Source: Gonapodya prolifera JEL478
Taxonomy: Eukaryota; Monoblepharomycota; Monoblepharidomycetes; Monoblepharidales; Gonapodyaceae
Length of the DNA stretch: 64,000 bases
Assembly (NCBI GenBank): GCA_001574975.1
Contig: KQ965847.1
Coordinates: forward strand, 62,001 to 126,000
Reading direction: 5' to 3'
The position numbers were made by a program, and so were the translations under genes. Each line of letters begins with the position of its first letter. Position 1 is the stretch's first letter. Of the stretch, positions 37,301-61,700 are shown piece after piece. The notes beneath the pieces were generated by a model. That model was not told the DNA's origin. It made no database searches and worked only from the letters and a program-made list of their open reading frames with translations.

Positions 37301-40300
37301 CTTGAGTATGCCAGAAAGTCATATTGATTTGCAGATTGTGGCCGTTGTTCTCACCATTCCACATGACTATCACGTGAGTTAAACATTGCTTCACGAGTAC
37401 GCATGTCCCGTCGAGGTTTACGTTCGTTTTTAAAAAGTTATCCAAGACTGAAGAGAGTTTAGTGAACTTCCAAAAAGCACTCAAGATCTTGTGGAAACAA
37501 GATTTTATGGGCCTTCCACCGGAACCTGAAGGAGACGAAATCATCACTGTGCCAGACATTCGAATTGTGATGGGACACTTCATCTTTCGCATATTAGACT
37601 CACCATTTGAAGCGAAACTCGGAAGGAATTTTGTTGTTGGTCTCTCAGAACAAGTGAGTGCAATTTGTTTGAATTTTTTGTGTGAACAAGACTTCCAGTC
37701 AATTGTTCGACGTAAAAGTCTGAAAGGTTAAAACGCGAAGAATTACTTCATGACAAGGTCAGAAAATTTAAACTTAACGGGACAGATGAGGATAAGACTT
37801 TCCAGGTGCTTGCCCACTGGAACTCGCAATCGTGGATAGCGAAGATGCAACCTCAGCACCCAGCACCTGCTCTTTTGTCTTACGAGTCGTATAACGTTCG
37901 TATCGACTTGCGTCCTCCAGTTTTTAAGGACAACGCGAGCATTCCTGAAGTGATAGCCCAAATGGACGGGAACATGGTGAGTGACAAAATATACGTGGAA
38001 TATGGTGTGGTTATATATTGCTTCATTGTCAGCCTCTCGATACGCGATGGGATATAATTGTTCCATTAGATTTGAGATTTTCCCAGAAGGCTGCAAGGCT
38101 GTGGTTTCGAGACTATCCTCCCCTTCTTGATAAGCCATTTGAAGATGGCTGCGGGATCGTCATCAATTCAACTGTATGTGAAACTTTTCAAAGTCCGAAG
38201 CATTTCATTGATTCCTTTTTGCTCTAGCTTATTGCTGCTGAGCAACTCGCCAGTGGTTTCTCAATAAGATGGCCAGAGCTCTCCTTATATCCTGCAAAGC
38301 AAAAGATTCTGAAACTAAGGCGGACAGTGGGAGCGATGAAGTTCTTTCATTCTACAACCATATCTGTTGGTGGTTCTGCCAGAATTATATTTGGTCCAAG
38401 GTGTGTTTGATTCGCACAGTCCTATAAACGTTTCCACCCACCAACATGAGTGCTTTTCGAAGCTTTGAACCCGCACTTGCAGATGCAGTCAGAATTCTAG
38501 ACCTCATTACTCCTGAACGAATGGATCCTTCCCCACCACTTGCATATTGGGATAAGTTGAGGCTGATGTTACACGGCCAAGTTCGTTTCACAAAACTTGG
38601 TGGTGGGGAGTGGCGTCTCAAGCTCACACAAGGGTGGGTGTTTTCGGCTTTATCCTTCTCTGTTGCACCCTTTTACTCTCTAAAAGCACAGGCTCTCACC
38701 TTATGGCTTCACCTTTGGACGGGGTGCAGATCACGACGGTGTGGAAGTTGTATTTCGCCAATCATCACGTGTCTTCATCGGAGGACCCCATCTTGCAGAA
38801 GAGTTTGGACTCGATCCCACAAGCATTGGGAACAACTTTGAGACAAAGTTTTTGTGCATTGAGAGTGAAGAGATAGAGGTTCGTTACGTGTTGTGGGTAG
38901 TACCGTTTGACAGTTAACAATCTACCACTGTCTTTGAAATCAACAGGCTGGTATTGCCATGAAGAATGCTGGCCCTGCCATAAGATTTCTTCGACTTGAA
39001 GGAGGATTACGTTGGACATTCTTGATGGGCTTCAGCGCAACTGTGCCTCATTTCCACGTGGTACAACGCCACACAGGCACAGTACCCGTATTTGATCGTA
39101 ATTCGTGGGACAGTTTTGCTCCTTTTCGTGCTGGTAACATTGCAGTCGCTACCATGTTGAGAGAAAGCCACTCAGAAAGTTCCACGCGGACAAATTTACT
39201 AAGTCTCAGCTTTGCAGTCAGTCATTATGTATTGCGACGAGTGGTTCCTTCCTTTACGTCGGAGTTGAATAATCTCAAGATTCACCAAGGAGATGTTTTT
39301 GGCATTGCCAAAATATTCAAGACAAAAATACAGCAGTTTATGTCTCACATAAATGTTTCAGGCTTGTTTTCGCCACTGCTTATTGGGTGAGTTCTGCTCA
39401 AAAGTTGATTAACCTAGCTGTCGTAAAGGTCCACTTTGTTAGCTTCATTCACCACATGGAAAATGAAAGCTCCTCCGAGAAGAGTGGTCTTGGTCTGCGC
39501 ATTAGAGCAAATGCAACTAAGTTTAGCTGCACCATAGCACGAAATGTGAACAGAGAATGGGAACTCCCTGAAGCAGATGTTGTAGGTACTCCGATTCAGA
39601 ACTATTCTTTCCACATTCCAAAGAATCGCTCTATTCTTCTTCGCTGTTTAAGGATCTTGAAGAATTTGAAGCCAGGACTGTTAATCTTTTTGATTCACTT
39701 CCTCCAGATTATGAAGAGGATTCGGATGTTGACAAATGGACAGACGTCACAGTTGACGGAATATACAGTGGAATAACCCTTGAGGCATTCGCATGGTCAC
39801 CAAGGATTGTCTTCCATGCCGATTTAGATGCCGCTCCGTCACATCCACAGCAGAATTTACACAATGTTCAACTTGTCGAGAAACGGCTGTTTGAGATTCA
39901 AAAGGAGATTGATCTTTTATCAGATAAGGGCCTAGAACAAAGCAAAACGCTCCAAGGTATGCAATTACTCACCATATCCAGTTCTTTTCTCAACTCTTGT
40001 TGCATTATCACAAACAGATCTTTTAAGACATCGTGACCTCGTGAAAACTCATTTGCGATCGCTCGCGCAGCAAACTTTGATCAGAGCTCCACGCGGTCTG
40101 CCACGAGACTCTAAGAGTGGATCTCGTGGGGTGTTGTTTAACAAGCGCTTTCTTGTGCATGTAAGTGCTCTTGGATGGAACACATCACGAATAGTGATAA
40201 CATTGAATGCTTGCACCACCAAGGAGCTGAGGTTATTTGTCAATACTCACGTGAGGGATGCCATCATTAAGTGGTCGGAAGTTGTTTGGCAGGATGCATC

Positions 40301-43007
40301 AGTCAATTTCTGTGAGGACCGGCATCGCGATATCTTTTTGTTTTTCGAAGTATTTCACGCTTGATTGACGTAGATCTTTCGAATGCCGCCCTAAAGCTTG
40401 TAAGACAACTAACCAAACCCACCTCTTCAACTGAGACAGCTGATGAGCACGATAGAGCTCAAAAGTTTGCCACGACCACATTTACCAGGAAGGATGCAGA
40501 TGAATTGCTGGCAAAGCTCATCCGAGAACGTGAAACAAACCTAATTGTGGACTGCGATACACCCGAACCTAGATCGACACCTGCAATAACTGAAAGAATA
40601 TCACCGACCTCAATATCTCCGAATACTGCAACATATGTTCCCTCCACAGATTCGAATTCACCTTCATACATAGCACCAAACCACAAAGCTACTGGAAAGC
40701 TTTTGGTTCAATTGACGCACACACAACTGCAATTGATGGTCTGTCCCCGGATGTGGCTGCTGTAAGCCGAAAGCTTCGTTTAATTTTGGTTTTCAATAGG
40801 CACCTTTTAACGAGATGGATATGTCACCTGGAGGAAGCCTATTCATTACTGCAGACCATATGACTTTGAAGACCGTGGACATATCAGAGCAAAGTGCTAA
40901 CGCCACTTTTGGTGAAAAGGTTGACAGCAAAATGTCTCTTGTCAAAAGGTGCCTTACATTTTAAGGATGCATTGATCCGGCGTTTTGCTAGCTTTTCTGT
41001 TTCAGCCAATTTGTGGGAACAATCTTGAATGGCCAATCATTTGTTTGGCGTCCACCTTCTGATCCATTGGCACTGCGTCGTGCACATCCACCTGTACTTT
41101 GGATCCCTCTTGAAGTTCTTCTTGATACCTCACCAGAAGCGCCAACTAGAGGAACAATACAGAGAGTTGGAGATCGTGTTTCCCTGGAAGTTGCGATTGA
41201 TCAATATAATCCACTTTACGTCCCATCGAAACAAAATGCGACCCAGCTTCCACAACAACAGACTGGAACAGTGTGGCGTTTTATGTTTCCAGATATCAGA
41301 TTGTGAGTGAATGCGTCAAATTTTAAACAGTTTATTGTGACTAGTTACTTTTTGACTTACAACGCCCATCAGATCGGCAACTTCTGAAGCATTTAGCACA
41401 ATATTTGATGTCTCCAGTAAGCTTATCGCAAATGCTGAGCTTAGCGAAAAACGTCGAGAAGACAAAATGAGGGAGTGGGTGCTATTGTTACAACGAATGG
41501 AAATGTTGGGAATTCTTCCAAGCATGTGAGTAATTGATGGTCAACATGCATTATGAAGTCTCACTCATTTGAACAAAGCACAAATGACATTGAGGCTCTT
41601 CAAGCTCAAATTTTTGAAAATGAGCACAGATTGCAAAATGTGCTCCAGGAACAACCAACGTCTTCTGAGATCTCTGAACTTAAATCAACTATTTCAAAGA
41701 GCAAAGCTGACCTATATTATGTTCTTAGTGCTCTCAAGTCTATGCGAGAGCGCAAAAAGACCAGCACTGCAACTTTAGAAATCATTTGCACCATTGACTC
41801 ATTGAACTGGGTGATGTTAGCAGAGAGTGGTGCACCATTTGCAGATGCTCGGTTGAATGGTACAAAGCTCCTCTTTGTAAGTTCTTGGCTGCATGGTAGC
41901 CTTAGGCGTCTGTATTGACATTTTATTGTCTTTGCTTTGGGGAATCAAAAAGGTCCAGAATGAGGATGGAAGTACAATTTTAAATCTTGAAGTGGATGAC
42001 ATCTCCCTTGAAAATGTCACGACAAGTCACGCACACTTTCGCAATGCAGTTTCTAGACTGGAAATCGGCGGTGCGAGAGATCAAAGGAAACAGAAAATGG
42101 TTCGAGTTCATAGACGTTCTCTTGCCCCAGTTGGAGGCATTTCGGTAGTTGAACATTTTGAAGTGGATCTTTATCCTTTCAAACTCAAAGTGTGTTTGCT
42201 TGCTTTTCTGAAATGTTGTCTTCGCAGTATTCACGAGTTCTGTATTTCGTCAGGTTACATTGGACCTTGCAAGGAGGATACGAGACTATGTTTTCCCTGT
42301 CAGAAAACCAAACTCCTCAAAGTCTTCATCAAATGTGGATTTAACTATGAAGGAAAGTGTGTGGACTGATGGTGGCACGGAGATAGATCAAATGAAAAAG
42401 TATGTGCTGTTTCCTACCGTGTGCATTTGCTTTAACGTTCACGCTGATGGTATATTTTTATCCGCAACCCATGGTCCAAATTCTTTGTAGTCGTTCAACT
42501 CAAACCATGACTTTCATTTACGTCAAAGTTCCTGGATCCCAGCATGAGCTCTCGTACAAAGTCTGTACCCAAACTGTATTGTGTTTACCTGCAAACTGAA
42601 TTTCACATGTCTCATCTTGTTACAAAGGGTGACAAGACACAGAACTTGCTTGAAGTGGACAGATTTTTGCTGGTCCTTCCAACATTAGAATACCGAAACA
42701 AAATGTGGTCATATTTCGACTTTTTCATGCAGCTTCGACGAGGTAGGTGCATTGCAATTTTGCGACATCACTTTCTCTGACACTTCGCGGATGGAAAGAA
42801 ATACTGAATATTGTCACAACAAATGCAGGAAGCTTCATCAAGAATCAACTGAAGCGCATCCCTGGAAATGTTCTGGAATCAGAGGAGAATTACTTACTAA
42901 AAGAAGATCAATTGCATGATGAAAACATTAATTCAGCCATGACTCCAACCATGCGTGAGGCTATGAACCGCCAGTTGCTTTTTGGAAAACTCCTTCATGC
43001 AAGGTAG
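34319..43007 (+). CDS. FMP27: FMP27/BLTP2 (Hobbit)-type bridge-like lipid transfer protein
   Basis: The gene starts with a membrane anchor (MLWFFSWLLPLFPSRTFLVF). After a short intron comes a 2.8-kb exon (to 37373) rich in alternating beta-strand-like segments, as expected for a chorein/RBG groove. Diagnostic blocks follow: GFTWVSGSRRHE (~36655), EWRWDSSAHVTIGS (~36870), the FMP27 GFWDK-type motif LAYWDKLRLMLHGQVRF (~38540), GGLRWTFLMGF (~39000), a coiled coil (DIEALQAQIFENEHRLQ, ~41590), FIYVKVPGSQHELSYK (~42515) and LLVLPTLEYRNKMWSYFDF (~42665). The last exon ends SFIKNQLKRIPGNVL...LLFGKLLHAR with TAG at 43007. The 3' 5.6 kb carries a dozen or more short introns, and I give no exact list. 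These proteins sit at ER-plasma membrane contacts and move lipid in bulk. Oddity: the 5' third is GC-rich and almost intronless, while the 3' part is AT-rich and intron-dense. Confidence 0.82.
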
Positions 43008-44175
43008 CAGTAGCAAGACTTTTGTAGTGTATTGTAAAATAGTGTGTACCATGTGATTGTTTTGAGACAATGCCATCTCTATTGCAACTTGTCCTGGTCA
43101 TTTATTCTTCAGGTATAAAATATGTGGCTGATGTGTTGGAATACAAACAAATATGCTTACTTTTTCAAAATGCATCTGTCAAAGCTACTATTAGCCTACT
43201 CTGCACATTTGTTATTTTACCAAAAGTTAAGAAGAGTTATTTAATTAATACTTTTTTGCAGCATTTAACATTTTAGCTGACACTGAGCAATATGCACTGG
43301 TTGGTTATGAGTGAGTGAGAAGACTCACACAAAACACACATTTATTGTCTCTGTAGATGGTGTTTTTGCATGGGCATTGGTAGGTCCAAATCAGAGTTTG
43401 GAAATTTTTTTGCAGCACTTGACATTTGGTAAGGATCTTGATCAGAGAATTGATGACACTGTGCTTTGTGCACCAGTTGCTTATGAATGAGTGAGAAGAC
43501 TCATATTAATGACTTAAATTCATTGGTGCAGTGAGTTTTCTTGCATAATTGATAATGCAAGAAAACAAGCGCAAAATTTCCATGTTAGTATATCTTTAAT
43601 TGCATTGTTGCAACAGTTGTCAGAGCACATGAGTTCATGTAGAAGCCCTGATCAATTTGGCAAGTTTGAAGGTATGTGAGCCACTGAGCAGACTCACCAA
43701 ATCCAACAATGCCAGTTCATCAAAAACAATATATTAAATTGATTATTCACTCTGTGACAATTTCAAAGCAGTTAGCAGTTGGAGGAATTGGTTTAAGCCT
43801 GACCATCTGTTTGTACAAGGAAATCCTTGGTATCTGCAGAGTCTTACACGCACCAGTTATTGATATACTATTTACTGTTACTGTTGACCTCATATTTAGA
43901 AGCTGTTCTCTTAACATATAGCATTTGTTGCACTGGTACAATTCTTGTGATATGTATTCCTTGTTATTCAAGGCACACAGATGTCCAATAACATGGTTTG
44001 AAAAATCAAATGGACATACGTCCATTGTTTGCAGATCCACATCAGTCAAATTGAGGAATCTATGAAGTTTCCTTTAAGATCAATTGTTATAATGTGAATC
44101 ACAGTATTTTGTAATATAATGGATTTTCAGGAAAGGGTGAAACCAAAGGGGTACCATAATGAAGGTGGCTCCAGT
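43008..44175. repeat. AT-rich DNA with diverged tandem units
   Basis: Two to three imperfect units follow the FMP27 gene. Each contains TTTTGCAGCA(C/T)TT, then CACTG...TGCAC(T/C)GTTG..TATGA.TGAGTGAGAAGACTCA (43255-43335 and 43408-43507; a weaker third near 43610-43700 ends GAGCAGACTCACC). Spacing is about 155-170 bases. No coding sequence is supported; the short open frames here match nothing. Origin is unknown: decayed satellite or local duplications. Confidence 0.4.
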
Positions 44176-44415
44176 TGCTACACAACCTAGGTGAGCTGCA
44201 CGAGCCTGTAAACTGCAGGAACGTGTATATATGATCAGATGTACATAGCAAGACGTAATGTGCATAGAACTCACCTGCAGGAACGTGATGCCAAACTTAG
44301 GGCACGTCCTGCAGGTGTGCACATCTAAACCCGCGGCCACAGTAGTGGCACAGCAGCTAATACCCAACACTCATACTACACTATATACTCCATGTTAGTG
44401 GATGTCAGTGTGACA
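44176..44415 (-). mobile_element. Solo-LTR-like repeat, copy 1
   Basis: A 240-bp repeat is bounded by TG...CA (TGCTACACAACC at one end, GGATGTCAGTGTGACA at the other). It is flanked by a perfect 5-bp duplication CCAGT (44171-44175 and 44416-44420). TG...CA ends with a 5-bp target duplication are the hallmark of a solo LTR of an LTR retrotransposon; no internal region is present. It differs from copy 2 (inverted, 49952-50189) at about four positions, so both insertions look young. Family (Gypsy or Copia) cannot be told from the LTR alone. A 5-bp-TSD MITE is the alternative. Confidence 0.65.
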
Positions 44416-46300
44416 CCAGTGTGTTTGTCAAGCCATGGTGTTTCTTGTTTTTCACTCTGATTGTGCTGCAACTGACCCCACAAGCAATGGCTGCTAACCC
44501 TTACCGTCAGGGTGCCACAAGCATACAAAATAGCAGAAACAGTTCCCCCTTAAAAACAGGACATTGTCACCTCCTGAGGTAAATTGGATATACAACAAGT
44601 TCTTAGCAAAAATAGCAGAATATCTTTTGAAGTTTTGAGTCAATTTTTGAAACTCATATAATTTATTTTATTCCAAAATTTGGGGGAAAGTTACAAAAAG
44701 TTTCAGAGAACCAATCCCAATAGAGCATGTGCGCCACCTGCTGTTATGGGTAAAAAAAAAGTACCAGTACGTTTTACAGGTCAATAACCAGCAAAACCAT
44801 GTGTGCACTATTTGAAACGTATAAGTAAAGTTCCCCAGTGCTAAATCATCTTTTTGGCAATCAACTGCGCCCAATTCCTACGCCATTGCCTTGATTATCA
44901 TGTGTCAATCCAATCTGCACAGTACGGCTGCGTAAAATTGGGAATGGGCTTGGATCACAAAATCCATTATCCCTGCCCAACCACATGTGATCACACCAGA
45001 TTGCGCAGAAAAGACAGAGTATTATAAGGATTGAGTGTCAAAATGGGAGAATTCCAAGAAGAATGGGGGCAACCAGCATTGGGCATATGGAAAAAGAGAG
45101 CAACTGCCACCCAAAATGCATGAGGAGGAATTTCAAGGTGGTATTGATGACGTTTGAAATGTAGGAGTGGGGTAGTGTTACTGCTTTGGGAGCAGATCTT
45201 TACTACAGGTAGCTGGATTCCACTTGTGGAGAATTTGAAAAACAAAAGTAGAAGGTGTGGTCCCATACAAAATATTCACACTCACACGTTTTCACCTGTT
45301 TTTACGAGTAGAGCACAACCCCTAATAAAACAAAAATTATTACACAAGTTCCTCAATACGTTTCTCCTCCAACTTTCTGTAGCAACTCAGTTTAGGAGTT
45401 GCCAGTGAACAATGCATTGCATATTGGTCACACCACTCAAAACCATGTAAACTGCAATTCAGAAAATGGAAGTAACCAGCTGGAACATTAGGTCATTATT
45501 GCAGCTACTCTTTTTCTGATTCTGAGGAGCAAGGAAGAAAATGAATGAAGAAGGAAAAAGCAACATTATACAAGGAAATAAAGTAGTCATTGAACAATTT
45601 AATTTTCATTTTGCAGCTAATCACTTCTTTTCAGAAATGTCAAAAATGTGATTGAATATATGAAAAAATATCATTGAATATGAAGAAGATGGAAGTGATT
45701 GTGTGGGTTAGATAACTAACTGATTCTGCAGTTTTCTCCATTCCAGTGTTAGATACATTACTTGTGTAGTGCTGCACCCATGTCAGTCTGTATCATTTTA
45801 CCCTTGAAAACTTAGAAAAGTGCCAACAATTTTCTCCAAACTTAACAATTGCTGAGAAGTGTAAAACAGTATCTGACCACTGGCTCCACATAAAAAATTC
45901 AATGTAGGGCCAATATTTTGCACTAGAGCATTGTTTGAGTTTTGGATGAATTCTTTTGTCCCCATTCTTGTCCTTGTTGTCAATGAGATGGCTTGAACAG
46001 CTTTGATTTCACATTCTCAACAAAAAGTGAAGGTGTGGCTGTGAGTTTTCCATGGTGCATATTTAGTCAACAAGAGCAAAATACCAAATTTAAATTAATT
46101 TCCATCTTCATTTACCAAAAACATCCCAAATACATAAATATATCAAATTATCTTGGTCTTGGTAGTTTAATTTAGTTTACTGGTTCCATGTCACCATTGC
46201 TTGTCCAATTGAAAGTCAATGAATGTGTAGTTTCTACAATGTGATACCCTAGTCTCTGTAAAAAGGTCTGCCATGACAGTGCAGTGCTGATGGTACCTAA
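44416..46300. other. AT-rich intergenic DNA, nothing recognised
   Basis: Between LTR-like copy 1 and the Harbinger element there are about 1.9 kb of AT-rich sequence. Only short chance open frames occur (for example 44991-45266 minus and 45154-45408 plus), without motifs. No further repeats with matching ends were seen. Confidence 0.4.
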
Positions 46301-46314
46301 GGGCCCTTTTGGTA
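46301..46314 (+). repeat. Left terminal inverted repeat of the Harbinger element
   Basis: GGGCCCTTTTGGTA, identical to the complement of 49697-49710. It is preceded by CCTAA, whose TAA is the presumed target duplication. Confidence 0.88.
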
Positions 46315-46589
46315 GTGCACTTTTTTGCTCTTAATTCTTGAATAAAGAGTTTATTGAGGCACGCAATCCCTAATAAAGAGAAATTATGATATGTGCTCTT
46401 GGTTCAAATCGCCTGTAATTTTTTGCAATTTAACTCCTCATTATTTCTCTTAATTTGAATAAAGAGAAAGAGGACCTTTTGGTTCGCTTTATCACTTCTT
46501 TATTGACCCCTTTTAAACTCCCAATAATGCATTATTGAATAAGGAGGTGTGGACCTCTTTTTCACCTCTTAATCCCCCATATATCATCA

Positions 46590-48011
46590 ATGCCCACTAA
46601 CAACAACGCAAACGCTACACCGGTTTCCACAGTATCCAACGTGGCAAAGAGGCAATTGGCTGCCCCCTGTGCGTCATGGAATGAGGATCGGGATGATATG
46701 CTTTTCAAAGCAATCATCCAGCAGATTCAGATTGGGAAGAGGGCGCAGGGGGGACTGAAGCCTGCAGCATGGAGGGCAATTGCAGACAGCTTCAACAATG
46801 CCTGTGGGACAGCATTCACTGTTACCCAAATCAAGAATCGGTACCAGCAAATCCAAGTTGACTTCAAGATTATAAAACGCCTCAAGAAGCTCAGCGGGTG
46901 GTCATGGAACAACAATACGTGCATGCTGGAGGTAGATGATGATGTATGGGACGCTGAACTTGCGGTGAGTTGAAATCAATACTGTATGTCTCAGACATAC
47001 CGTTGCTTATTGGTACAATGCTCACTCCAATGCTATAGGCTATCAAGGCAAAGGTGGAGGAGGGCATGTTGGACCCAGAGTACAAGCGTGCGGTGGCAAT
47101 TCAGAATAGTGGCTTCCCGCTATGGCACAAGACATATGAAGTTTTTGATGGACAACTTGTGGAGGGTACCTACGCTGTCACCATTAGTTCGCAAATGGTG
47201 ATGACAGGTGTGCAGGGGAAAAAAACAACAGGATCCAAAAGACGTGGACAGAATACAGGGGACGGGGATTCCGACGTTGATGACATGCAGGGTGAGTGTT
47301 CCTGACTGCGTACTTTGTCCCAGTCAACAACATTGTCATATTTCTGCTCCAGTTGATGACACAGAGTCCAGTGTGGGTCGCTCCGCCTCCGATGCACAGT
47401 TGATAACCCCACTATGCCAGACTCCAAGCGTTACAAGTGACCAATCGCGGACATGGACATTGCGGAAGCATTCAAGGAGTAGCACTGGATCATTGGCGGA
47501 CTCCGTGAACCAACTGAATGGACTTGGAGAGAACCTTTTGGCTCACCAACTTCAACTTAGCACCACCAAACAGAATTGGACTACAACGCCTCTGGAAGAG
47601 GCGTTGGATATTGCACAGGATGACGGGATGCATGAGGACGACCTGATGGAGGTGACCCGCCTGTTTTGGGATCCTGTGATTGCGGCAACATATGTTGCTT
47701 TGAAATCCCCATCCTGTCACAGGCGGTTCTTCAACATGGAACGCACCAACAGCAGGCGTGGTATCATGGGAATAGAGGCAGCACCTGGACAAGAATTGGG
47801 AATGAGCAGGATGGACAGTCCTCTGAGTATGGTAGGTTTCAGAAGTGCAATGATGTCTGGTAGGCAGGTGGGGACCATTGGGACAGGCCACTTAGGCAGG
47901 ATCATGGCAAACTCTCTGGGAAATGCCGCGGAGCAAGTGGGGTCAGGACAGATGGAATTCGGCCATCTAATGGGTGATGGGCAGATGTGGAATGGACATA
48001 GTCCCATCTAG
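46590..48011 (+). CDS. Harbinger-associated Myb/SANT-like DNA-binding protein
   Basis: Exons 46590-46964, 47039-47291 and 47353-48011 splice in phase to 428 residues. Residues ~28-110 form the Myb_DNA-bind_3 (SANT-like) domain: WNEDRDDMLFKAIIQQ, KPAAWRAIADSFNN, FTVTQIKNRYQQIQ, KKLSGWSWNNNT. This is followed by KNSGFPLWHKTYEVF-type sequence (here IQNSGFPLWHKTYEVFDGQ) that closes such domains in transposon proteins. The rest is Gly/Ser/Met-rich. In characterised PIF/Harbinger elements this protein binds the transposon ends and brings the transposase to the nucleus, and both are needed for movement. It lies inside the element, so it is a transposon gene, not a host gene. Confidence 0.82.
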
Positions 48012-48133
48012 GGTGAATTATTTGTACGCCCACTTTATAAGTAGCATTAATACAATAATACTCTTATTCATAAACTGATTTGTGATGTTTCCAATGTCCG
48101 AGCATGTCCCTCTGGACAACTTCTCCATTACTT

Positions 48134-49457
48134 TCACTTTGCCTGTCGCAATTGACGCCTTGTTAGTTCTTCCTCATACTGTACCCACATAGCATCCGCA
48201 ATACCATTGCGAATTGCACTTGGAGCCTTGTCTGCCGTCATATCTTCCATAACAAAATCCACCCCTGCAACCATCCTGTCCTGTCCTTGCCCCATGGCTG
48301 CCATTCTCTGAAAGTCCTCCCACTCCTGTACAATCCAATCATCCATAGAATCGCCCTCCAGAAGGATGAAATTGTGTAGCACCACAGTAGCAATGAAAAT
48401 ATCACGCTGGGTGACAACACTGTACTCCATTGTGGTGCGTAGGGCAGCAAAGCATTGCTCTAGAATGCCGAAAGCGCGCTTGATGACATTTTGGAGGGAG
48501 GAATGTTGCAAGTTGAATAGTTCCTGGGCGTTCTGGGGCCTGGAATGCAATATGGACACCAATCTATCAATTAGAAAGGAATTGCCAGTCAAATACAACT
48601 CACCTTAGTCCAAAAAGTCCCCATTCCTTCAGATGGTACCGTACTGTCTTGTATGGTGTTAGAACTAACCGTGAGAGTGCATAGCCAGCATCCCCAAGGT
48701 ATAATTGGCCCCCAGGTATAGAAAATCCCTTTGCTATAGCATCTTGGAAGATGGGATTGTCGTGGGCAGACCCTTCCCATCCGGCCAGTACAAAGGTGAA
48801 CAACATTGAGAAGTTCACCACAGCCAGAATGTTCTGGGACAGCCCTCCAGACCTATCCCTACAAGGTGCTTGCTCTGAGTATGGAATCCACACAGGTACA
48901 TGCGTTCCATCAATTGCTCCAAGTGCTCCATTGAAAAATGGGGAGAATCGGAGATTGTCAGTGATTTGTGAGGCAATTGGCGCATTTGCAGATGGCTGGA
49001 CAATGTAAGAAGGTGCCAGACTGACAATGGTGTTTAATACGGCATGGAAGTACTTGGAAACTGTCCATGATGAGTGTTGGAAACAATCCTGAATTGTCGG
49101 CTGGGTTGCACCTGTCCGCGTGATTGTCAAGAACATGAATACCTGTTCTTCCACATAGACATTCTGCAAATCCTTGAGCAATCCCCTCTCCCATAGCAAA
49201 TCGACCAGCCAATGGAAGATTGGCAGTTCCATTCCAAGCAATGCCCACGCCCACTGAGAGTTGCCACTCAACACCTCGTCAACATACGCCGCACCTTGAA
49301 GCAACGAGTCCATCACCCGATTGCAAGCGGCAAATGAACGGCGCTGGCTTGCAGCAGCAACTGCTGCAATTGCAACAAATGAAAGTCCCATCCACACTAG
49401 TGCGCTGTCCGTCACACCATAATCTTCGTCTGATGAATCCCAAAATCCATTGGCCAT
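48134..49457 (-). CDS. PIF/Harbinger transposase (DDE_Tnp_4 family)
   Basis: Exons 49457-48604 and 48539-48134 splice in phase (GTGAGT donor, TTCCAG acceptor) to 419 residues. The helix-turn-helix region precedes QVFMFLTITRTGATQ and HSSWTVSKYFHAVLNTIV. The catalytic core has the first Asp in GALGAIDGTHVPVWIP, the second in GWEGSAHDNPIFQDAI, then YLGDAGYALSRLVLTPYK and RPQNAQELFNLQHSSLQNVI. The third acidic residue is expected in N-V-I-E-R-A-F-G, but the codon at 48481-48479 is AAG (Lys), giving NVIKRAFG. If the alignment holds, cleavage activity should be lost although the frame is intact. The C-terminus is HNFILLEGDSMDDW...EEELTRRQLRQAK. It is transcribed towards the Myb-like gene; the stops are about 120 bases apart. 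Confidence 0.87.
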
Positions 49458-49696
49458 ACTTTAGACAAGGCGTTCTTGCTGCTCCTGTGGTGGAGGACGA
49501 AGTAGAGGATGGGTCAATTGCAGAAGTATATGAAGCTCTTTAATAATAATGCGCCTCTTTATTATAATTTCCCAATAATGCAAGTCTCTTGGTAGCGGGC
49601 TCTTTAATCCCAATAAATTCTCTTTAATTCTAAGTCAATTTATTGGCCAAGGCATTTAAAGAGTTTTTGGGAATAAACCTCTTAAATTTTAAGAGT

Positions 49697-49710
49697 TACC
49701 AAAAGGGCCC
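49697..49710 (-). repeat. Right terminal inverted repeat of the Harbinger element
   Basis: TACCAAAAGGGCCC, exact complement of 46301-46314, followed by TGA. Confidence 0.88.
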
Positions 49711-49951
49711 TGAATTGTCCAGATTGTTCTTTTCCCTTAATACCCTTGAAATAAGCTCACATTGGTAGCTTTTTCCTTTAACCCCTTCACTCATTGGATT
49801 TGAACAGAGTTTCCCAGTCATCAAGGATTATGTATGCATTACAACTAGTATTTTAACTGTAAAAATTTTTCATAGTGTCTTAGCAGTGGTACAGTTTCTT
49901 GAAAGAAATGTCCTCTGTTCAAGTCCTTGGAGACCTACATATCATACCTTC

Positions 49952-50189
49952 TGTCACACTGACATCCACTAACGTGGAGTATATAGTGTAGTATGAGTGT
50001 TGGGTATTAGCTGCTGTGCCACTACTGTGGCCGCGGGTTTAGATGTGCACACCTGCAGGACGTGCCCTAAGTTTGGCATCACGTTCCTGCAGGTGAGTTC
50101 TGCACATTACGTCTTGCTATGTACATCTGATCATAAATACACGTTCCTGCAGTTTACAGGCTCGTGCAGCTCACCTAGGTTGTGTAGCA
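49952..50189 (+). mobile_element. Solo-LTR-like repeat, copy 2
   Basis: A 238-bp copy, inverted relative to copies 1 and 3, with the same TG...CA ends. It is flanked by a perfect 5-bp duplication CCTTC (49947-49951 and 50190-50194). It is nearly identical to copy 1, with two substitutions and one 2-bp length difference by eye. Together with copy 1 it forms a 5.5-kb inverted pair around the Harbinger element. Different target duplications show the two are independent insertions. Likely young; family undetermined. Confidence 0.65.
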
Positions 50190-50194
50190 CCTTC

Positions 50195-50635
50195 ACTGAT
50201 GTGCCTTTTTTTTCCAATTTTCAAGAAAACTTCTCTCAAACAGTTCTTCAATGTTTATTTGTAGACTAATCATGCCATTTTATGAACTTGTGTGAGTTCC
50301 TGAGGTCAGATAATTACAAGTTGCTGCAAAAATTATAATCCCCCATATGTTCATTCAAATATGCATATCAATTCCCTATGCTAAACGTAACACCAAGCAA
50401 TTAGTTAGTTAGGTACCGGGTACTCACATTTCTAGAAATAAGTCCAATGTGCTGTGCTCCCTCATGTCTGCCCATGACGCTCTTGTAATGATGCTCATGG
50501 AACCCACCAACACCTTTCCATGCCTTGATTTTAGGAAAATATTATTCAACTACAATGAGCAGTCGTTCTTTGATGCCATCATTCTGAAAAATGGCCTAGT
50601 TCACAATTCATTGACAGGTTTACGCCATACTGTCT
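50195..50635. other. AT-rich spacer between LTR-like copies
   Basis: There are about 440 bases without a recognisable gene or repeat. The short open frame at 50449-50694 runs into the repeat and has no motif. Confidence 0.35.
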
Positions 50636-50875
50636 TGCTACACAACCTAGGTGAGCTGCACGAGCCTGTAATCTGCAGGAACGTGTATGTGTGATCAAAT
50701 ATACATAACAAGTCGTAATGTGCATGGAACTCACCTGCAGGAACGTGATGCCAAACTTAGGGCACGTCCTGCAGGTGTGCACATCTAAACCCGCGGCCAC
50801 AGTAGTGGCACAGCAGCTAATACCCAACACTCATACTACTCTATATATTCCACGTTCGTGGATGTCAGTGTGACA
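50636..50875 (-). mobile_element. Solo-LTR-like repeat, copy 3
   Basis: A 240-bp copy in the same orientation as copy 1, with TG...CA ends and about 95% identity to copies 1 and 2 by eye. It is an older insertion. Flanks TGTCT (left) and TGCGT (right) agree at only three of five positions, so the target duplication is eroded or one flank was exchanged. Confidence 0.6.
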
Positions 50876-51527
50876 TGCGTAGTTACATTGTCATTCCAAT
50901 GACTGAACACACAGGTGCTGCAAAACCTGGGTATGAGTTGTTTCATTTGGTAAAATGGACCATTCTTGCAACCTGCACACATGTACAAAGAAAGAATGCA
51001 CTGTTCAAAACCTTACAGAGAAACTCATGATTGCCATTGTTCTCAGCCAGTAAACTCTCTGAGTGAAGTGCTGTGAGCTGTGAAAGTTTTGCGGCTAAAG
51101 TGAATCATCCATTTTGTACTGGGGAAATGCTCAGTATCCTAAAAGCAACAAACACCTTCCAAGCACAAAATGGACATCATCAACAATTAAAGAATTCAAG
51201 CAAAATAAGTCAAGCAATCATTCCATATTTCACCTGTTGCCTGCCGGCAAGTCAAACAGTCACCTCTGAGATTTGTTCCGGTTGATTATTCCCATTTCAC
51301 AGGAGGTTGCCGATTAGACGACGATCTCACTACGGATTAGGGGTTTTCCTATGATTGGTAAGATCCTACAAACAAATATGTAATTCGATTTCGCTGCATA
51401 CTTTTCGCTTGCACTGGCAAGACCGTCGTGCCAAAGGATTTATTACCTCTTCCGCGTGCTTCCCGTGCCCCGGACTCGCGCAGGCGTCGTTCTCTCTCCT
51501 CTGCATTCTGTCTCGCATCGCCGTTTC
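50876..51527. other. AT-to-GC transition upstream of PUS3
   Basis: No gene is visible. Composition changes from AT-rich to GC-rich at about 51300-51450. The promoter and leader of the PUS3 gene must lie here. Confidence 0.4.
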
Positions 51528-53419
51528 ATGTCCATCGATATCTCCACCCTTTCCCGCGATGAATTGATCGTTCAACTTAGGAGCCTTGTGAAACAAGTCG
51601 ATGAGCTGAAAGCAGCCTCTGGAGCTGGAGGTCTCGGACTGGAAAGCGCTCTGTCGAGTGCAAAGAGGACCAACGGGACTGAAAACGTTCTGAAGGAGCG
51701 GGAGCAAAAGCGGAGGAAAGTGAGCGAGATGGCGCAACAACCAGATACTGAAATGGAACTCGCAAGCGATCCTGCCGCCATTGAGTCCCAAAGCGGAGCA
51801 AGCAATGTGCCCTCACCAGTGCGAATGAAGGAGCGGCGCGAGTTCAATTTCTCCCGCCACACTCGCCGCCCCGTTGCGCTCAAACTTTCCTACATCGGAC
51901 ATGACCTGCACGGGTTCGCGATGCAGCCTAACACGGCAGCTGGGACAGCTGGCGACCGGTCTGGTGCACCCCGGCTGGTTTCCGCTCATGGGAACTCCGC
52001 CCAGCTGGATACTGTCGAGTCTGCACTCTTCGCGGCGTTAATTACAGCCAAACTTCTCGATGAAAAGGAGGAAAGGAGGAAGTGGGCGTATGGGCGGTGT
52101 GGCCGGACGGACAAGGGAGTGTCGGCTTTTGGGCAGGTGAGGGTGGGCCAGTAAACGAATTTACCGGGCGGAGCGCAAACTTGAAAGTCATTCTGTGCAC
52201 TCGCCATGCCATTTGCAGGTTATTTCTATCCGCTTACGCTCAGCCCTTCCTGCCGGCGCCGCCCCCCACGTCGTCCCGTGGGATGATGAGTCCCACCTCG
52301 CCACAACGTTCTTTCCATCGGCGCCGGACGAAGACGATGATGAAAGTGATCAAGCTGCGGCGGTTCCGGTTGTACCAACAGACGCCGAGTGCAACAACAC
52401 ATCGGACCCCGGAACTGCCTCACCCACCCAGGATGTGAACGCATCCGAACTCGACTACCCCCATCTCCTGAACCGGCTTCTTCCACCCACAATCCGCATT
52501 CTAGGGTGGAGTCCCGTACCTCCGACGTTTAACGCGCGGTTCAGCTGCCGATCGCGGCTGTACCACTACTACGTCCCCCACACTCCGGACTTGGACGTTG
52601 CCGCAATGCAGCAGGCGGCCGAGGCGTTTGGGGCCGGGGTGGACAGGGATTTTAGAAACTTTTGTGTCCCGGACAAGTCCCTCAAGAAGGCGGGCAAGGA
52701 GGTGCGATACACGCGTACATGTCTCGGGGTCAAGGTCCAGCAGGATCCTGCTCCCCCAGCCCCGGCCCACGCCCACCCCTCGTCACCCCTCGCCCCCCTC
52801 CCGCTCCTGACCATCTCGGTCCACGCCACGTCTTTCTTGTATCACCAAGTACGCTGTATCGTTGCCGTTCTGCTCCTTGTGGGACGCGGGCTCGAATCGC
52901 CAACCCTGGTCGAGCGCTTACTGGACCCGGCCGAGTTCCACCGCGGCCGTCCCAACTTTATTATTGCACCAGCAGAGGGGCTCGTCCTGGTCGGGGCCGG
53001 GTATGATGGGTGGGGGATCACGTGGAGAGCGGGTGCAGACGCCGAGAGGAATGTCGCGAGAGGTGTATGGGAAGGATGGCGCGAGGGGGCGGTCAGGACG
53101 GCCGTGTGGGGCGGGCTGGCAAGGGAAGTGGGAGCCGGGCGGGTGGTCACAACCGTTGTCGGTGGGGTTGGTGGGGTTGATGTGGGTGTGGCGGGTGGGG
53201 ACCAAGCGTGGGGACCAGGCGAAGCGGGAAGGGTGGGGTTCGGGGCGTGGAGGGAGGGAGGGCATGGGGAGGGCGCGAAGGGGGCGGCGGGAACAGGTAA
53301 AGGAAAGAAGGGGAAGGCTTATGTTGGTGGTAAGTGCGAAGTGCGGGGGGTTGAAGGTGGTGAGGTTGACTGGATTTCTTTGACCCACAGTACTTGACCG
53401 ACAACGGATCCCATATTAG
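51528..53419 (+). CDS. DEG1: tRNA pseudouridine(38/39) synthase
   Basis: Exons 51528-52136, 52219-53329 and 53391-53419 splice in phase to 582 residues. The TruA-family catalytic motif CGRTDKGVSA (nucleophilic Asp) ends exon 1. It is preceded by RRPVALKLSYIGHDLHGF, with a longer insertion (GTAGDRSGAPRLVSAHGN) than usual. Later blocks are NARFSCRSRLYHYYV (F-S-R-Y substrate pocket), DRDFRNFCVPDKS and TSFLYHQVRCIVAVLLLVG, all typical of Pus3/Deg1, which modifies U38 and U39 of the tRNA anticodon arm. The N-terminal ~90 residues contain a basic, Lys/Glu-rich segment (LKEREQKRRKVSEM). The C-terminus after GAGYDGWGITW is an unusual ~110-residue Gly-rich tail ending in a tiny third exon (VLDRQRIPY). 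A Pus1-type enzyme is unlikely because the NFC and YHQVR blocks fit Pus3. Confidence 0.87.
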
Positions 53420-54246
53420 AAGCACTCGAATTTTTGTCGACGCGGAAAGTGAGCTTTTTCGTAATTTCCGACGGGGTGAAACATTCACGAGAGTGCGAGA
53501 ATCAGTGGACACGTAGATACCAAGCCGGTACAAGTCCACATACGTCGAAAGATAACTCCGTATCTGAACATATACCGTAAAAATCGATAATTCATGAGTT
53601 TGTTCAGTTTACCACACCACACCAACCTGCATTCCACACCCAAGATGCGCTGGACCCGGATTCTCCTCAAAGAAGTGAATATTCCTTTTTATCTACCCTT
53701 CCCCGAGTGAAAGATGAAAGGATGCCCTCGCGTAAGCGACCGAGGAGAAGGTCCACAAACCACGACCTCCAATCGCGGTATGACACGCGGAGGGGGCGGG
53801 CCGGGAAGGAGCGGAAAAGGCGCTACGCGGTGTAGAGTGGGTGCTTATTGAGGCGAGGGAACAGAGGTGCCGCTTGACGAGGCGTGTTTATCGGTGCGGA
53901 GGCTCAGTGTGATGTGGTGTCAACGATGGAGCGATGGGCGCTCGGCACGGTCTTCGGACGGAAGGATTCGGCTTGTTCGGGAGTTTGAGTGGTTTTTGTG
54001 GCTCTTTTGGGTGGATACTTACGTGTCGTCTTCTATGTGCGAAACACGTTCCATTACCTTGGACGACAACCACCGAAACCGGCACTCTGCCCGCCAATGC
54101 GCCCTTATACTCTGCTCCACAATCTTCTTTAATGCTCTTCTCGCCAATCCCTCCCTACCCTCCACTCGCTGATATCCACCCGTTGATATCGCCACCGTCC
54201 TCCTGAACAACCCACCCCCTCGACACCGACACCCCACCGAACAAAG
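53420..54246. other. Intergenic region plus unresolved first exon of the NDUFA5 gene
   Basis: The frame of the NDUFA5 exon has no ATG upstream to a stop at 54184, so a small first exon with the ATG must lie somewhere in this 0.8 kb. I could not place it with confidence. Open frames at 53867-54172 and on the minus strand show no motif. Confidence 0.4.
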
Positions 54247-54597
54247 ACGACTGGCCTGACTGGTTTGGCCGTCCACCCGAACCCTCGACCGGCGCTCATC
54301 TCGCTGTACCAAAAAACCTTGTCTGAACTGTCTTCCATTCCCGAGACGGCACTGTACCGGCAATCCGTCTCGGCCATCACATCCCACCGTCTCCGAATCG
54401 TAGAATCATCTGAAGACGTGAGCAAGATCGAGCACGAGATCGCCGCGGGACAGGTGGAGGAGCTGATCCAGCAGGCGCAGGACGAGCTGGGGTTGTTGGA
54501 GAAGGTTAAGGGGTGGAAGCCGTGGGAGGCGCTCGAAGTGCCTGAGCCCGAGAAGCAGTGGGAGTACACGTTTTCGGAGAACAAGGGTAGCAGGTGA
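54247..54597 (+). CDS. NDUFA5: NADH:ubiquinone oxidoreductase subunit NDUFA5 (main exon)
   Basis: The exon encodes TTGLTGLAVHPNPRPALISL, then LSELSSIPETALYRQSVSAI, ESSEDVSKIEHEIAAGQVEE and KVKGWKPWEALEVPEPEKQW, ending SENKGSR. This matches the ETC_C1_NDUFA5 family along its length: human NDUFA5 starts with KKTTGLVGLAV and has the LEEIPKNAAYRKY and KLEDQLQGGQLEEVI blocks. It is an accessory subunit on the matrix-facing arm of complex I in the mitochondrial inner membrane. About 116 codons are visible, against ~116-125 residues in family members, so only a few N-terminal residues (usually M-x-KKTTG) are missing and lie in an unplaced 5' exon. The acceptor is near 54246, or the exon may begin a little upstream. 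Confidence 0.85.
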   Translation, partial: TTGLTGLAVHPNPRPALISLYQKTLSELSSIPETALYRQSVSAITSHRLRIVESSEDVSKIEHEIAAGQVEELIQQAQDELGLLEKVKGWKPWEALEVPEPEKQWEYTFSENKGSR

Positions 54598-54856: not shown

Positions 54857-57800
54857 ATGCTGCACAACGGCGAGTCGCAGGTGGTCCGTGCGCGCGGCGG
54901 CGGATCGCAGGTGGACTCCGAATCAGCCAGCGCCATTGCGAAGACGGCGACACGACGGCCGACGGCCGATGGATGCGCGAAACTCGGCGACAACGATGCA
55001 CACCCGACAGTGCAAGTGCTGGAAATATACAGATGTGAGGTGCAATGTGGGCTGGACCTTGTCCGGTGGAAGAGCCTGACACCGTCACGTCATCGCCCAC
55101 GCAGACACCGTCGACGTGCCATACTTCGCCACGCTCACTGCAAACGCACTCGCACACGTGGTACCGCTGCGCCACACCCAGACCCCGCTGTCGCAGATGG
55201 ACGCGTTCAACGACTCGCACGTCGCCTTCGATCTCAGAGTCGGCGACGGCGTGTTCAAGGTGCGTGACACTCGCTCTACACTCTCCACCGTCCTGAGCTC
55301 GCTATTGACTGTCCTATGCGTACAAACCACGCCTGGCCCACACTCCCAGACCAAACTCCACTTGCACAACTCACTCAACCCCCTCGTCCTCTCGGGCCTC
55401 ATCCGAAAATACGCTCTCCTTTCCATCTTAAAGACGTCGAAACTCACAGCCGAAACACACGAAGGCGCTCCCTCGTTCTATGTTGTCACAGCACTCAAAG
55501 TCATCAACCACCTCAATGAACCCTATGTCGACGTGGACGGGTGCCTGCGTGAACATGGCGAGGCCGCTCCAGAAGGCGTAAGTTCCTATCGCATGTGCCA
55601 CCCAACAAGGCGCCTTACAACCCCCCACCCCCACACACTCCACCCGTAAGATGCACCACCGCCTCGCGACACCCCTCATCATCCGCACCTCCAACCCCCT
55701 CCTATCCTCGCGCGGTTGCTCCTCAGACCCATTTATTGACACTCTGCTCAACCCTCCGCATAAATCATGGCTTGCTGTCACCCGAGCCTCGCTCATTGCT
55801 GACGCAACCACAACATGGACACCCGACGCAGATATAGCACCGTCAGTCACCCTCCGGGACGACAAGGACACGTTTCAATTCACACACATACCCCTCGCCC
55901 GTCTCTGTGTCACATGGGACATACAAGGTGGTGGGGCTGTGCACGGCCCCGTAACGATCGGCCGCGTCCTCTCGTGCTCCCAACTGGCCTCCTTCGCCAA
56001 CACCTCCGACGGCGGACAAAAGTTTCCCTACCTGTTTAGTTTCACCATCTGGGACCCCTCGCTTGGATCGCTAGCTCCCTCTAGTAGCTCACCTACCGCT
56101 CCTTTCATTCATTGTGCTGCTGGTGGCACCCCCCCGTCGGTTACCGTCACGTGCTGGAACGCCCTGGCTTGCCGCGTGCACGCCTTGATCCGCCCGGGGG
56201 ACGTCGTGTGCGTCGGCGGGAACTACCGCGCCAAGAAGAGGGCGCCCTCCGCAGTGCTGCAGGGAGCCGGCGCCGACGCGGCCGTGTCGGGAAAGAGCAC
56301 ACAGCCCAGATGGGAGCTTTCCCTGAATGATTATAACCCGCGCGCTTGGATCCGGATCGTGCGTGGTGAGATGTGTCTGGTTCAAGAGGTTGACTCGCAT
56401 TACATCAGCTAACCCCATTCATCCCGGCAACCCGCACCGACCCTCGTCCCCGCATAACAGACCCATCAACTCTTCCACTCCCTATCCCCTTCCTCCCCAC
56501 CTACTCACCCCCGCCTTCGTCGCTTACACTCGCATCCTCACTCCCACCACACATGTCCCTCTCACTCCATCTGCGCCCCGCGTGGGTCTCACCACCTGAA
56601 CGCATTCTGTCTCCCGAGGGCCGCATCGACGAGACGGTTTGGGTCGCTGGGCCTTCTACGTCTCACGCCGGTGACGAGGCATGGATCAGGCTTCGAGTCT
56701 CGGCTCGGGCTCAACCGGGGTTCGTAAGAAGCGCGGACGTGGCGGCGAGGGAGGGAAAGACCGTCAAAGCGGGCAACGTGCTCGTCAACATTCCCCACGT
56801 GCGCGCACGTTGGGCGGGTGAGCAGGTAGCGATGGATGTTGGATGGGTCGTGGCGGGGCCAGGGAGTGTAACGGAATGGGTAGATCCGGAGGGGGAGCTG
56901 CGGGCTGGAGGAGTGGAGGGGGTGGAACGCTCGCTTGGTGAGTGCCGATCGAGCATGGCTATGTTATGACCAGATCCACTCACCAAACTTGCACCTTTCG
57001 CACCCCGCCCCCCGCCAAAGTTGGATCCTACATCGACCCCTCGCTTCCCTTCCCCAACTATTCGTCCTTCCGCACCTCGCTTGCCCAGGCCGCCACGCAA
57101 GACCCGCTCGGCGAGGACGGCGATCCTGGGGCGGACAGTATTGTTGGGGTCGGGTGAGTGGGCGTGGACGATTGCACTTGCCGGACACTTGACGTCTGAC
57201 GTATGACGCCTGACAACTCGCACCGAACCACCACCCCACACCCCCGCTCCAACCAGCATGCTCACTTCGATCCTCCCTGGCCTTGTCCTTCACGAACGCC
57301 GCCGCGTCGTGGTCCAAGCGACGCTTGCCAGGGTGGACTTGAGCGGGTTGGCGGAACGCATCTGTGAAGGGGTGGATCGATTGAGGTCGAGTCGTCGAGA
57401 CGGCGAGGCAAGCGGATCGAGGACGGAGCACGATCAGCCGATAGTGCGAGATCGATTTTCGGTGTCGCCGGCGCGGTCTGGTGGGTTTGACTCTGCGATG
57501 TGTCCACGTATGAGGTGGACGCTAAACACGCGCTACGTGTTTGAAAGCGACCGCGCCTCTCAGTCCCTCCACTCCCCAACGCCCCTCCACGACTGATGTG
57601 ATAACAGTCCCCTTGTCCGATTTTACGGACGTCCCGGGTCAGCGTTTCTCCCCGCTTCAGTCCTCACCTGCTCGATCGACCAGCCCGTCTCCTCCAGTCC
57701 GACGTGACCCTTCATCGCGAGGTGGGCCTTCAACTAACCACGGAACGAGATCGGGGGGCGGAGATCGGTCAGGTCGAGCGTCGGGGTCGGGCATGGATGC

Positions 57801-58622
57801 GGACGAGGATGAGTTTGTTGATGCGATTGAGGGTGTTAGGTGAGCCCGCGTTTTGGTGGGTGGCTTGAACTTGAACACCGAAGCTGAAGAAAGTTGTAGC
57901 TCGGGGTCGTCGTCGAGGCCTCGACCAGTGCCGGCGACTCAAGCAGGCGAAGAGAACGCGGTAGTGATGTGCAAGTATGTCCCGAGGGTGATGTCATATC
58001 ACGTTTTCCCGCGTCCAGCAGATGCACGGGTACGTTTTTTAAATAATATTTTGTCGGCATTTTCGTTGTGGTGTTCAGTCTCAATTCCAACAATATTCCT
58101 CCACAGGAACTCTCGACTGAACAAGCGCCAGTAGTGTTTACCCTCGTATCCATTGCGCAACCTCACATACGACTCCAAGCCCTCGTGGGGGCCAACATGA
58201 AGTATTTTGAGACTAAGAACGGGACGCCTCTGGCCCTCGCGGGGGACATCACGATCCTTTGGTCGCTCCTTGTAGTGCTACGGGGAGTCATGGAACCTCA
58301 CGAGTGGCGCCGGTGTTTGGTGATGGTCCAGAAAATGCGTACCTATGTCGAAACCGACGCGTCGAGGAGTTCCGTGCCAGCGCATTCTGTGATGACTGAT
58401 CTGGTTGGAACGGTCACTGGCAAGGTTATGGAAACGGTAGAGAGGGTTGCATCGTCGAAAGTAATGTGCGTCGTGGACTTTGTGCGGGATGATGCGGAAC
58501 CGGACCAGTTTGGAACTGAGTATCGTTTGGGCAATGATGCGCAAGTGTTGGGTCGCATGAGTGGATCAGACAGGGTACGATGCATGGTTTCACAGATCTA
58601 TCGTGTGGAGGTATTGGATTAA
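54857..58622 (+). CDS. RADX-like RPA-related single-stranded-DNA-binding protein
   Basis: The first four exons close in phase: 54857-55034, 55105-55259, 55350-55577 and 55651-~56365. Later exons are near 56560-56937, 56995-57155, 57258-57540, 57600-57840 and 58107-58622. Landmarks match human RADX (recalled): TVQVLEIYRY (human TVLAVQRY); AFDLRVGDGVFK-TKLHLHNSLNPLV ([24 protein letters not shown]); PLARLCVTWD (SLSHLEMTWN); SVTVTCWNALACRVHALIRP (SVIMWNALCPEWYKSLRV); VGSYIDPSLPFPNYSSF (IGGYYPYPPVPETFSKYSS); LHERRRVVVQA (REQKRIAIQG); LALAGDITIL (AVAGDIIKA). The order is the same throughout. RADX carries OB folds, binds ssDNA at stalled forks and limits RAD51. A Ser/Pro-rich linker (57600-57840) ends in an acidic DADEDEFVDAIEG. 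Alternative: another RPA1-like OB protein. The stop lies 165 bases from that of the convergent homeobox gene. Confidence 0.65.
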
Positions 58623-58786: not shown

Positions 58787-61700
58787 TTACCACAAGGGTG
58801 GCATAGAAGCCGACGTCGCCGCGGATTGACTGATCAAGGATGGATGCCCGTATCCATTCACGCCTGGGTATCCCATTTGAGATGAGTACGATGAAGAGCT
58901 GTGGACTCCTGTCGTCAATCCGGGAAACCTCGGAGGTGGTGAAGGTGCACGCGCTGATCCCGACAACGGCCTCGGAGGCAGTGAGGCATACGTATAAGGG
59001 TTAGAGGAAGATCGGATATAGCCATTTTCCTGAAGTCTATCGTTGTAGTCCATAACAGACGTCATTCCGCTTTGTTGCTCAAATGAGTGAGTCCGGGCAT
59101 CTGGAATGTAGTCGCTCATTGGTTGCGACTCGAACGCCGGAGCAACTAAGGGGCCGACATTCCTCAACGTGGCGCTTATTCTATCGTATGGATGTCCCAC
59201 GGTGTGGTGAAGGGTAGTACGGCCGTTTCTCACAGGGCCAAAGGACGTCATAGGGTCTGCGGTGTCAGAATAGTTCGTGTTTCCTGGTACTGGCGCTCGC
59301 ATAGATCCAGATACGTTGTGAGTATAATCCACAGAAGGTTGAGAAGGTTGAGAAGGTTGAGCAAATGTGTTTGGCCTGTGCGGACCAGGCTGGGTGTTAT
59401 GGAGAATTGCTTGCGACCCAGGGCGTGGGTACTCGTTTTGAGAAGCTAATGCTGGTGGTGTAGGTGGCGCAGTTTGCATTTGCAATGCATTCGGTGTAAC
59501 GCTTGGAAGGGTGTTCTGCACCAACTGCGGGCCAAAAGTTGGAGTCGCATCCAGTCTGTGTTGCAGAGAAGCAGCTGGTTGCCTGGATGTCACATATTGA
59601 GGTTCTGGCGGCACTGTCGCAGCAAGCATTGACGCTCCTGCAGAGAGTGTGCGGAAATGGTCTGCCGGTGCTGAAATCAATCTCGAGTCTCTGTATACGC
59701 CAGAGTCGATCGATGTCGCTCCTCCAGCAAAAGTGGATGGCCGACCTGATTCCGATGGGATACTCGTACCTCCTTCAACAAGGCTACTCGAGCTGGGCCT
59801 ATATAGTGATGGGAACCAGTTTGAAGTTGAAGCAGTCGGAGCGGTCCCACCAGTCGGGAACTCGAACTGAGGTGATCGGGGAAGATCTTGCGCAGAGGAA
59901 GCCATTTGCGCAGAAGACCCCAAGTACGCTCCTGTGTGGTCGTTTGCTGAGACATGTCGATAGCGATTGGAGGGATCAGAGGAGCTGTTGGAGTGGAAAC
60001 CGTTGTTGGGAATGTCGTTGGCGTTGTTGATATCGATTGATAGAGAGGAATGCGATGTCACTGAGGGATTCGTTATATGGCTGTTCAATGCAGAGGGTTG
60101 TGTAAGTACACAATTAAATTTCAATGACTCGAGGAGCCAAAAATCGCACCTTGCTTGGTGAACGGCAGGATAGTGACGATCGAACGAGCCTTCGGCCAGG
60201 TTCTGGGCGCCAACGGACGTGATACGGTTCGAGAACGATTCAGGTAGGGTTTCCATCATGCGAGTTGGCATTGCATGTCCAGACTCGGCAGGATATGCTC
60301 GATTCATTTGCTGACTGAAGCCGGCAACACTACTGAACGGTCCAGCTTTGAATTCATCTTGGGCCAGTGTAATGGGTAGTTGAGTAGAAGGTACACCACT
60401 AATTGTGGGAGCAGAACCTGGGCGTGTGATGTTATGCTGCCCGTGGTCCTGCACAGGTATTCTGCCGATCTCGTCCCCTGCTGTATTCCGCAATCCGTTT
60501 TGGCTTCTCCAGTATAATTCAGTAGGAATTTCTATCCCGGTCACTGAAGTAGAGACTGCTGGCTCTGTGATTAGTGATGATACTGGTCCTCTATTTATGG
60601 CAGTACCACTGGTCGAAGTCTAAGGAGATGGGCCGGGGGACACCACACAGCGTTACATCACGTTACAGCGTTCCTTGGAAGTGGATTAAACACGTACCAA
60701 ACTGTATAGACCAGATATCTTTGAGTCCTGTGTTTGTCGAGAAGTGATCTTCTCCGTCAGAGACGTTGCTTGATCGGGTCGAGATGCTTGTTCCCCAACC
60801 GACCTGGATTCCCAGCCACCACTCTGGGGTCCTATCGCTTGTCTAATAGAGCTTTGCGCCCCGGCTGACAAAGGCGGTATCACAGCAGAGTTGACGCGTA
60901 GATTTTGAAGGGTTTCGGCGCCCAGTTGACGGTATCCCGCAGGAACAGACGGGGGCGCCAGAGAAACACCTAAGCCCCTGGATGGAGGAGCCGTTTCGGG
61001 AAGAGTCGTGCGAGCAACAGGTCCGGCGTGCTGATCCCTCATCGGCCATGATTCACGAAGTTCTTGGTTGTTGGGATTAAATCGAGGTTCCGGGACTCCG
61101 GGCGACGGGTCGCGTAGATTTTGGACAGAGCGGGTGATGATGTTCGGTGAGGGGCCGCTTCTGACGTTGGGTACTGGGGCTCCTGGTGCGGAGTCACCCA
61201 TTCCCAGTGTACCGCTTGACCTTCTGTCGACGATAAGCTCATTCTCGGAGACTCCACTCCAAGCAGGGAGGGTGATTTGGTTCTCTGACGTGGGAGGTAG
61301 AGGCGGTAGTGCATTTGTTCCAATGCCGTCGCGCGTTTCTGCGTCGGGTGATGCAGACGGCCCGCTAGTTGATCGGCGCTCTTCGGCAACTCGAATGTGT
61401 TCTGCCACGTGCTGATGCCAAAATTGAAGTCGCTGTGAAACGAAACATGAGCATTTCATGAGAAGGCAGGAAAAAAGGGTTCTGATTTCACTCACGTCGC
61501 TCGGAAGATTGTTCAGGTTCGTCATTCCGTTCTTTTTACGCTGGTTTTGAAACCACGAGTTGACTTGCTTGTAGGTGAGACCTGTCGCTCGAGCAAGCTC
61601 TTCCTTTTCAGGCTGAGAGGGAAAGGGGTTCACTGAGAAGAAGTCTGCGAGAACGATGACCTGGGAGTGTTCTTTGCGAGTCGCTCGTGCTGTTTACAGT

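Follow-up and report, generated by a model that had tools for sequence, protein, structure and literature searches.

RADX has been described mainly from animals. According to PMC7430644, human RADX condenses single-stranded DNA (ssDNA) and antagonises RAD51 loading, and PMC12810152 proposes that it caps RAD51 filaments and tabulates apparently no counterpart in yeasts. PMC8902620 locates the RAD51 surface in OB3 and self-association in domain 5 (residues 744-855), and names the residues KIY (847-849). Here we describe a gene in a stretch of 64,000 nucleotides (the window) from contig KQ965847.1 of Gonapodya prolifera JEL478, whose product is probably a divergent RADX homologue, a single polypeptide with OB folds in RPA1-like succession. 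The fungus is an early-branching one and probably produces zoospores. Coordinates are collected in Table 1.

The OB1 and OB2 regions point to RADX

The evidence for this assignment lies in the first two OB regions. Against Pfam-A, the OB1 segment ranked RADX first (E 0.017, 13.5 bits) and Rep-A_N second (E 0.14), and the sole sequence listed for it in the PDB (177,635 sequences, E <= 10) was that of human RADX, 8u5y_B, with E 1.4. The pairwise score of OB1 with human RADX was reached by none of 2000 shuffles, and the same result was obtained for OB2, for which a one-target BLASTP gave E 0.006. BLASTP and the shuffle tests place OB1 before OB2, which is the order in RADX. Two-sequence profiles, each made from the fungal and the human segment, led in the PDB to RADX itself for both regions, with weaker Replication factor A chains in the case of OB2.

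Some of the residues altered in a human DNA-binding mutant are also kept. The OB2 mutant of human RADX (OB2m) described in PMC7430644 changes ten residues, the tenth of which, A73, lies in OB1. Four of the nine inside our OB2 alignment are retained, fungal R292, W356, K382 and E409 corresponding to human R240, W279, K304 and E327, while R248, K252, K255, K256 and R310 are changed.

When the whole protein was searched, RADX was the only OB family in Pfam-A at E <= 1 (E 0.27, 9.5 bits, residues 97-148 against model positions 90-141). The only other family within this threshold was the viral regulator CMV_UL34 (E 0.16; 0.017 for the fragment), a match of 30 residues in the last exon, below cut-off, which we read as chance. 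The whole protein had no match in NCBIfam or, at the threshold given, in the PDB. Weak matches are often dropped by the speed filters of HMMER, and these match lists are therefore incomplete.

The C-terminal half and the extent of the homology

Several results weigh against the RADX assignment. Neither of its Pfam scores, for the whole protein or for the OB1 fragment, reaches the curated cut-off of PF17659 (33.4), and the protein is therefore filed as RADX-like. The OB2 segment alone matched only the generic OB fold family in Pfam-A (E 0.31) and, in the PDB, four sequences including a single-stranded DNA-binding protein, RADX not being among them. Moreover, sequence support is confined to the OB1-OB2 half: the expected OB3 position scores at chance against human OB3 (Z -0.6), and so does the AGD block of the last exon, where domain 5 would lie.

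Between these two, the linker gives an intermediate result. Its score against RADX was reached by 46 of 2000 shuffles for residues 580-665, which include PFPNYSSF at 594-601, and by 16 of 2000 for residues 600-665, which exclude most of that motif; the OB3 and linker segment retrieved nothing from Pfam-A or the PDB. The sequence QIY stands six residues from the C-terminal end, a likeness to the human KIY seen by eye only. Structures predicted without an alignment for exons 4 and 10 had a mean predicted local distance difference test (pLDDT) of 34.5 and 47.4, respectively, so these models are too poor for a fold search.

An earlier note, made from the sequence letters, had proposed RADX homology and a full series of human blocks in order from the N- to the C-terminus. 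The homology is upheld by RADX ranking first for OB1 and being the best-placed OB family in the whole-protein search, and is tempered by the sub-threshold scores and the generic match of OB2. As for the block order, it holds for OB1 and OB2, while the AGD block scores at chance and PFPNYSSF nearly so.

The conservation of OB1 and OB2, with OB3 and domain 5 at chance, would also fit a narrower form of homology, in which only the OB1-OB2 ssDNA core persists, RAD51 surface and oligomerisation domain alike have been lost or replaced, and ssDNA is protected without any action on RAD51. We consider this rather unlikely, although it is the alternative that fares best: comparing just two sequences is a weak test, a rapidly diverging protein that retained its fold would give the same picture, and by eye AGDI and the near-terminal IY sit in position.

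Relationship to RPA1 and other OB proteins

The protein could instead be an RPA1-like paralogue or a MEIOB- or SPIDR-like fungal OB protein, sharing with RADX only RPA-type OB ancestry and serving as an alternative ssDNA binder that does not restrain RAD51. The second rank of Rep-A_N for OB1 shows that RPA-type folds are involved, but RADX beats this family at the same site, and no other PDB sequence was listed for OB1. Human RPA1 scored at chance with the whole protein (Z -0.4 with standard gaps, 0.4 with lenient gaps) and likewise with OB1 and OB2 taken alone (Z from -0.7 to 1.0), and RPA1 was rejected as the identity of the protein. The RPA1 core of the same genome gave Z 0.1 with standard and 2.8 with lenient gaps. 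In addition, the fungal protein has no CxxC and its six cysteines after residue 374 are spaced by at least 38 residues, so that its C-terminal half holds no RPA1-type zinc ribbon. PMC11377751 lists RADX as one of the proteins carrying this kind of ribbon, yet the human RADX sequence lacks CxxC as well. With OB1 and OB2 in RADX order, we regard this alternative as unlikely. The earlier note had taken a better placement with RPA1 or another OB family as the outcome that would count against it; as far as the searches were run, OB1 ranks RADX first and RPA1 is unmatched to OB1 and OB2.

If this fungal protein were unrelated to RADX and its short blocks resembled it by chance, the AGD block, PFPNYSSF and the missing PDB match of the whole protein would be accounted for. 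This is very improbable, given that two libraries searched independently of the hypothesis both put RADX first for OB1 and that OB2 then follows collinearly.

Gene structure and genome complement

The gene model is internally consistent. All nine introns, of 60-103 bases, are bounded by GT-AG, and exon GC at codon positions 1/2/3 is 0.64/0.52/0.66. In 2000 base-shuffles the ten exons were not once all open. Seven of the introns, if left in, would put the reading frame out, and an in-frame stop lies in intron 8. Intron 2 would cause neither if retained, so its removal is supported by splice signals and the RADX alignment alone. The donor at exon 7/intron 7 is ambiguous (57508 or 57481).

A search of the organism's own genome (47,557,447 bases in 207 contigs) with the RADX-like protein gave 11 matches, 10 of them within its locus and one elsewhere (39 residues, E 0.023), which indicates a single-copy gene. 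The Pfam RADX model run over this genome exon by exon had no match, and its control was equally silent, which makes that search uninformative. Searches of genome- and viral-contig collections, in which eukaryotes are poorly covered, for relatives of this protein or of the paired fungal and human OB segments confirmed no locus.

The Zn_clus binuclear cluster is mainly fungal. It was matched by 63 stretches of the genome, radial-spoke gene pieces follow one another on one contig, and the closest PDB chain to the RPA1 core is 4gnx_C, which we take to be Ustilago RPA (424.6 bits; the full-length human chain scored 337.7). Together these fit a flagellated, chytrid-like fungus. RAD51-family matches on four contigs, a BRCA2-type OB1 away from the RADX-like locus and a separate RPA1 indicate that likely partners of the RADX-like protein exist. 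HARP (SMARCAL1) and HROB were not found when the genome was searched exon by exon, which is no proof of absence, and DUF6533 was not found either, its control being silent too.

Proposed function and age

By homology, OB1 and OB2 of the fungal protein would most likely grip ssDNA, and by analogy with human RADX the protein probably self-associates and restrains RAD51 filaments at stalled forks. The OB1-OB2 grip is the only part of this mechanism with sequence support in the fungal protein; that it binds ssDNA, forms oligomers, antagonises RAD51 and acts at forks is attributed to it from its animal counterpart.

The RADX safeguard may be older than animals. Tentatively, and with somewhat less than even confidence, we suggest that the last ancestor shared by animals and fungi already had RADX, that the gene persisted, fast-evolving and in single copy, in flagellated fungi with BRCA2- and RAD51-type genes, and that yeasts lost it. 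The part that stayed conserved would then be the OB1-OB2 ssDNA grip, the RAD51 surface being very divergent or an animal addition. Among the records listed from the open-licence literature, titles and abstract beginnings contained no fungal RADX, and public protein databases may already hold fungal members. If confirmed, RADX restraint of RAD51 would be common to animals and fungi rather than exclusive to animals, and its ancestral role could be tested in a small fungus. It would also suggest that distant members are missed by the Pfam model and that the known spread of the family may be too narrow.

Other features of the window

The neighbours of the RADX-like gene have no bearing on its function. 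Frame 51384-52154, before the tRNA pseudouridine synthase domain, matched nothing in Pfam and could be part of one gene with that domain; likewise a 610-residue frame without a Pfam family (58787-60619, minus strand) may belong to the homeodomain gene beside it. The transposase-like frame lies within an AT-richer stretch (36001-52000, GC 0.41-0.48).

Table 1. Positions of the RADX-like gene, its regions and other features in the window
Feature	Position	Strand	Remarks
RADX-like gene	54857..58622	+	10 exons, 1004 amino acids; GT-AG introns and one open frame
Exons 1-5	54857-55034, 55105-55259, 55350-55577, 55651-56365, 56461-56937	+	
Exons 6-10	57021-57153, 57257-57507, 57608-57839, 57900-58029, 58107-58622	+	
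OB1 region	55004..55532	+	residues 50-172, exons 1-3; core residues 100-150 against human RADX 94-144
OB2 region	55885..56477	+	residues 266-431, exons 4-5; VTCWNAL and YRAKK motifs; human RADX about 218-349
Expected OB3 position	56547..57067	+	residues 455-600, exons 5-6; no sequence support
Linker with PFPNYSSF and HERRRVVVQA	57047..57365	+	residues 594-665, exons 6-7; weak
Last exon	58107..58622	+	residues 834-1004; position of RADX domain 5; AGDI and near-terminal IY by eye
NDUFA5 open frame, full domain, complex I	54187-54597	+	PF04716, E 1.5e-30; upstream of RADX-like gene
tRNA pseudouridine synthase domain	52141-53397	+	PF01416; upstream, beyond NDUFA5 frame
Homeodomain frame	60686-61693	-	PF00046; downstream of RADX-like gene, opposite strand
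DDE_Tnp_4 transposase-like open frame	48600-49460	-	
Putative mannosyltransferase, two adjoining open frames	26262-28450	+	PF11051

Comparison with known systems

Among the described OB proteins, the BRCA2 OB domains (PF09103) are linked to this family through human RADX, whose OB1 has a weak match, short of the cut-off, to BRCA-2_OB1 (E 0.0004), whereas the fungal protein has no such match at E <= 1. With RPA1/RPA70 (PF04057, PF16900, PF08646) it shares RPA-type OB folds, Rep-A_N being second for its OB1, but it differs in lacking the zinc-ribbon cysteines, in its chance-level pairwise score and in coming from a genome with its own separate RPA1. Compared with human RADX (PF17659, PDB 8u5y/8u61), identity is about 30 percent and is limited to the stretches of OB1 and OB2 that align, and OB3, the disordered part and domain 5 are unrecognisable by sequence; both are nevertheless single chains of comparable length (1004 amino acids in the fungus, 855 in human) without CxxC, in which OB1 and OB2 follow the same order and the four OB2m residues named above are kept.
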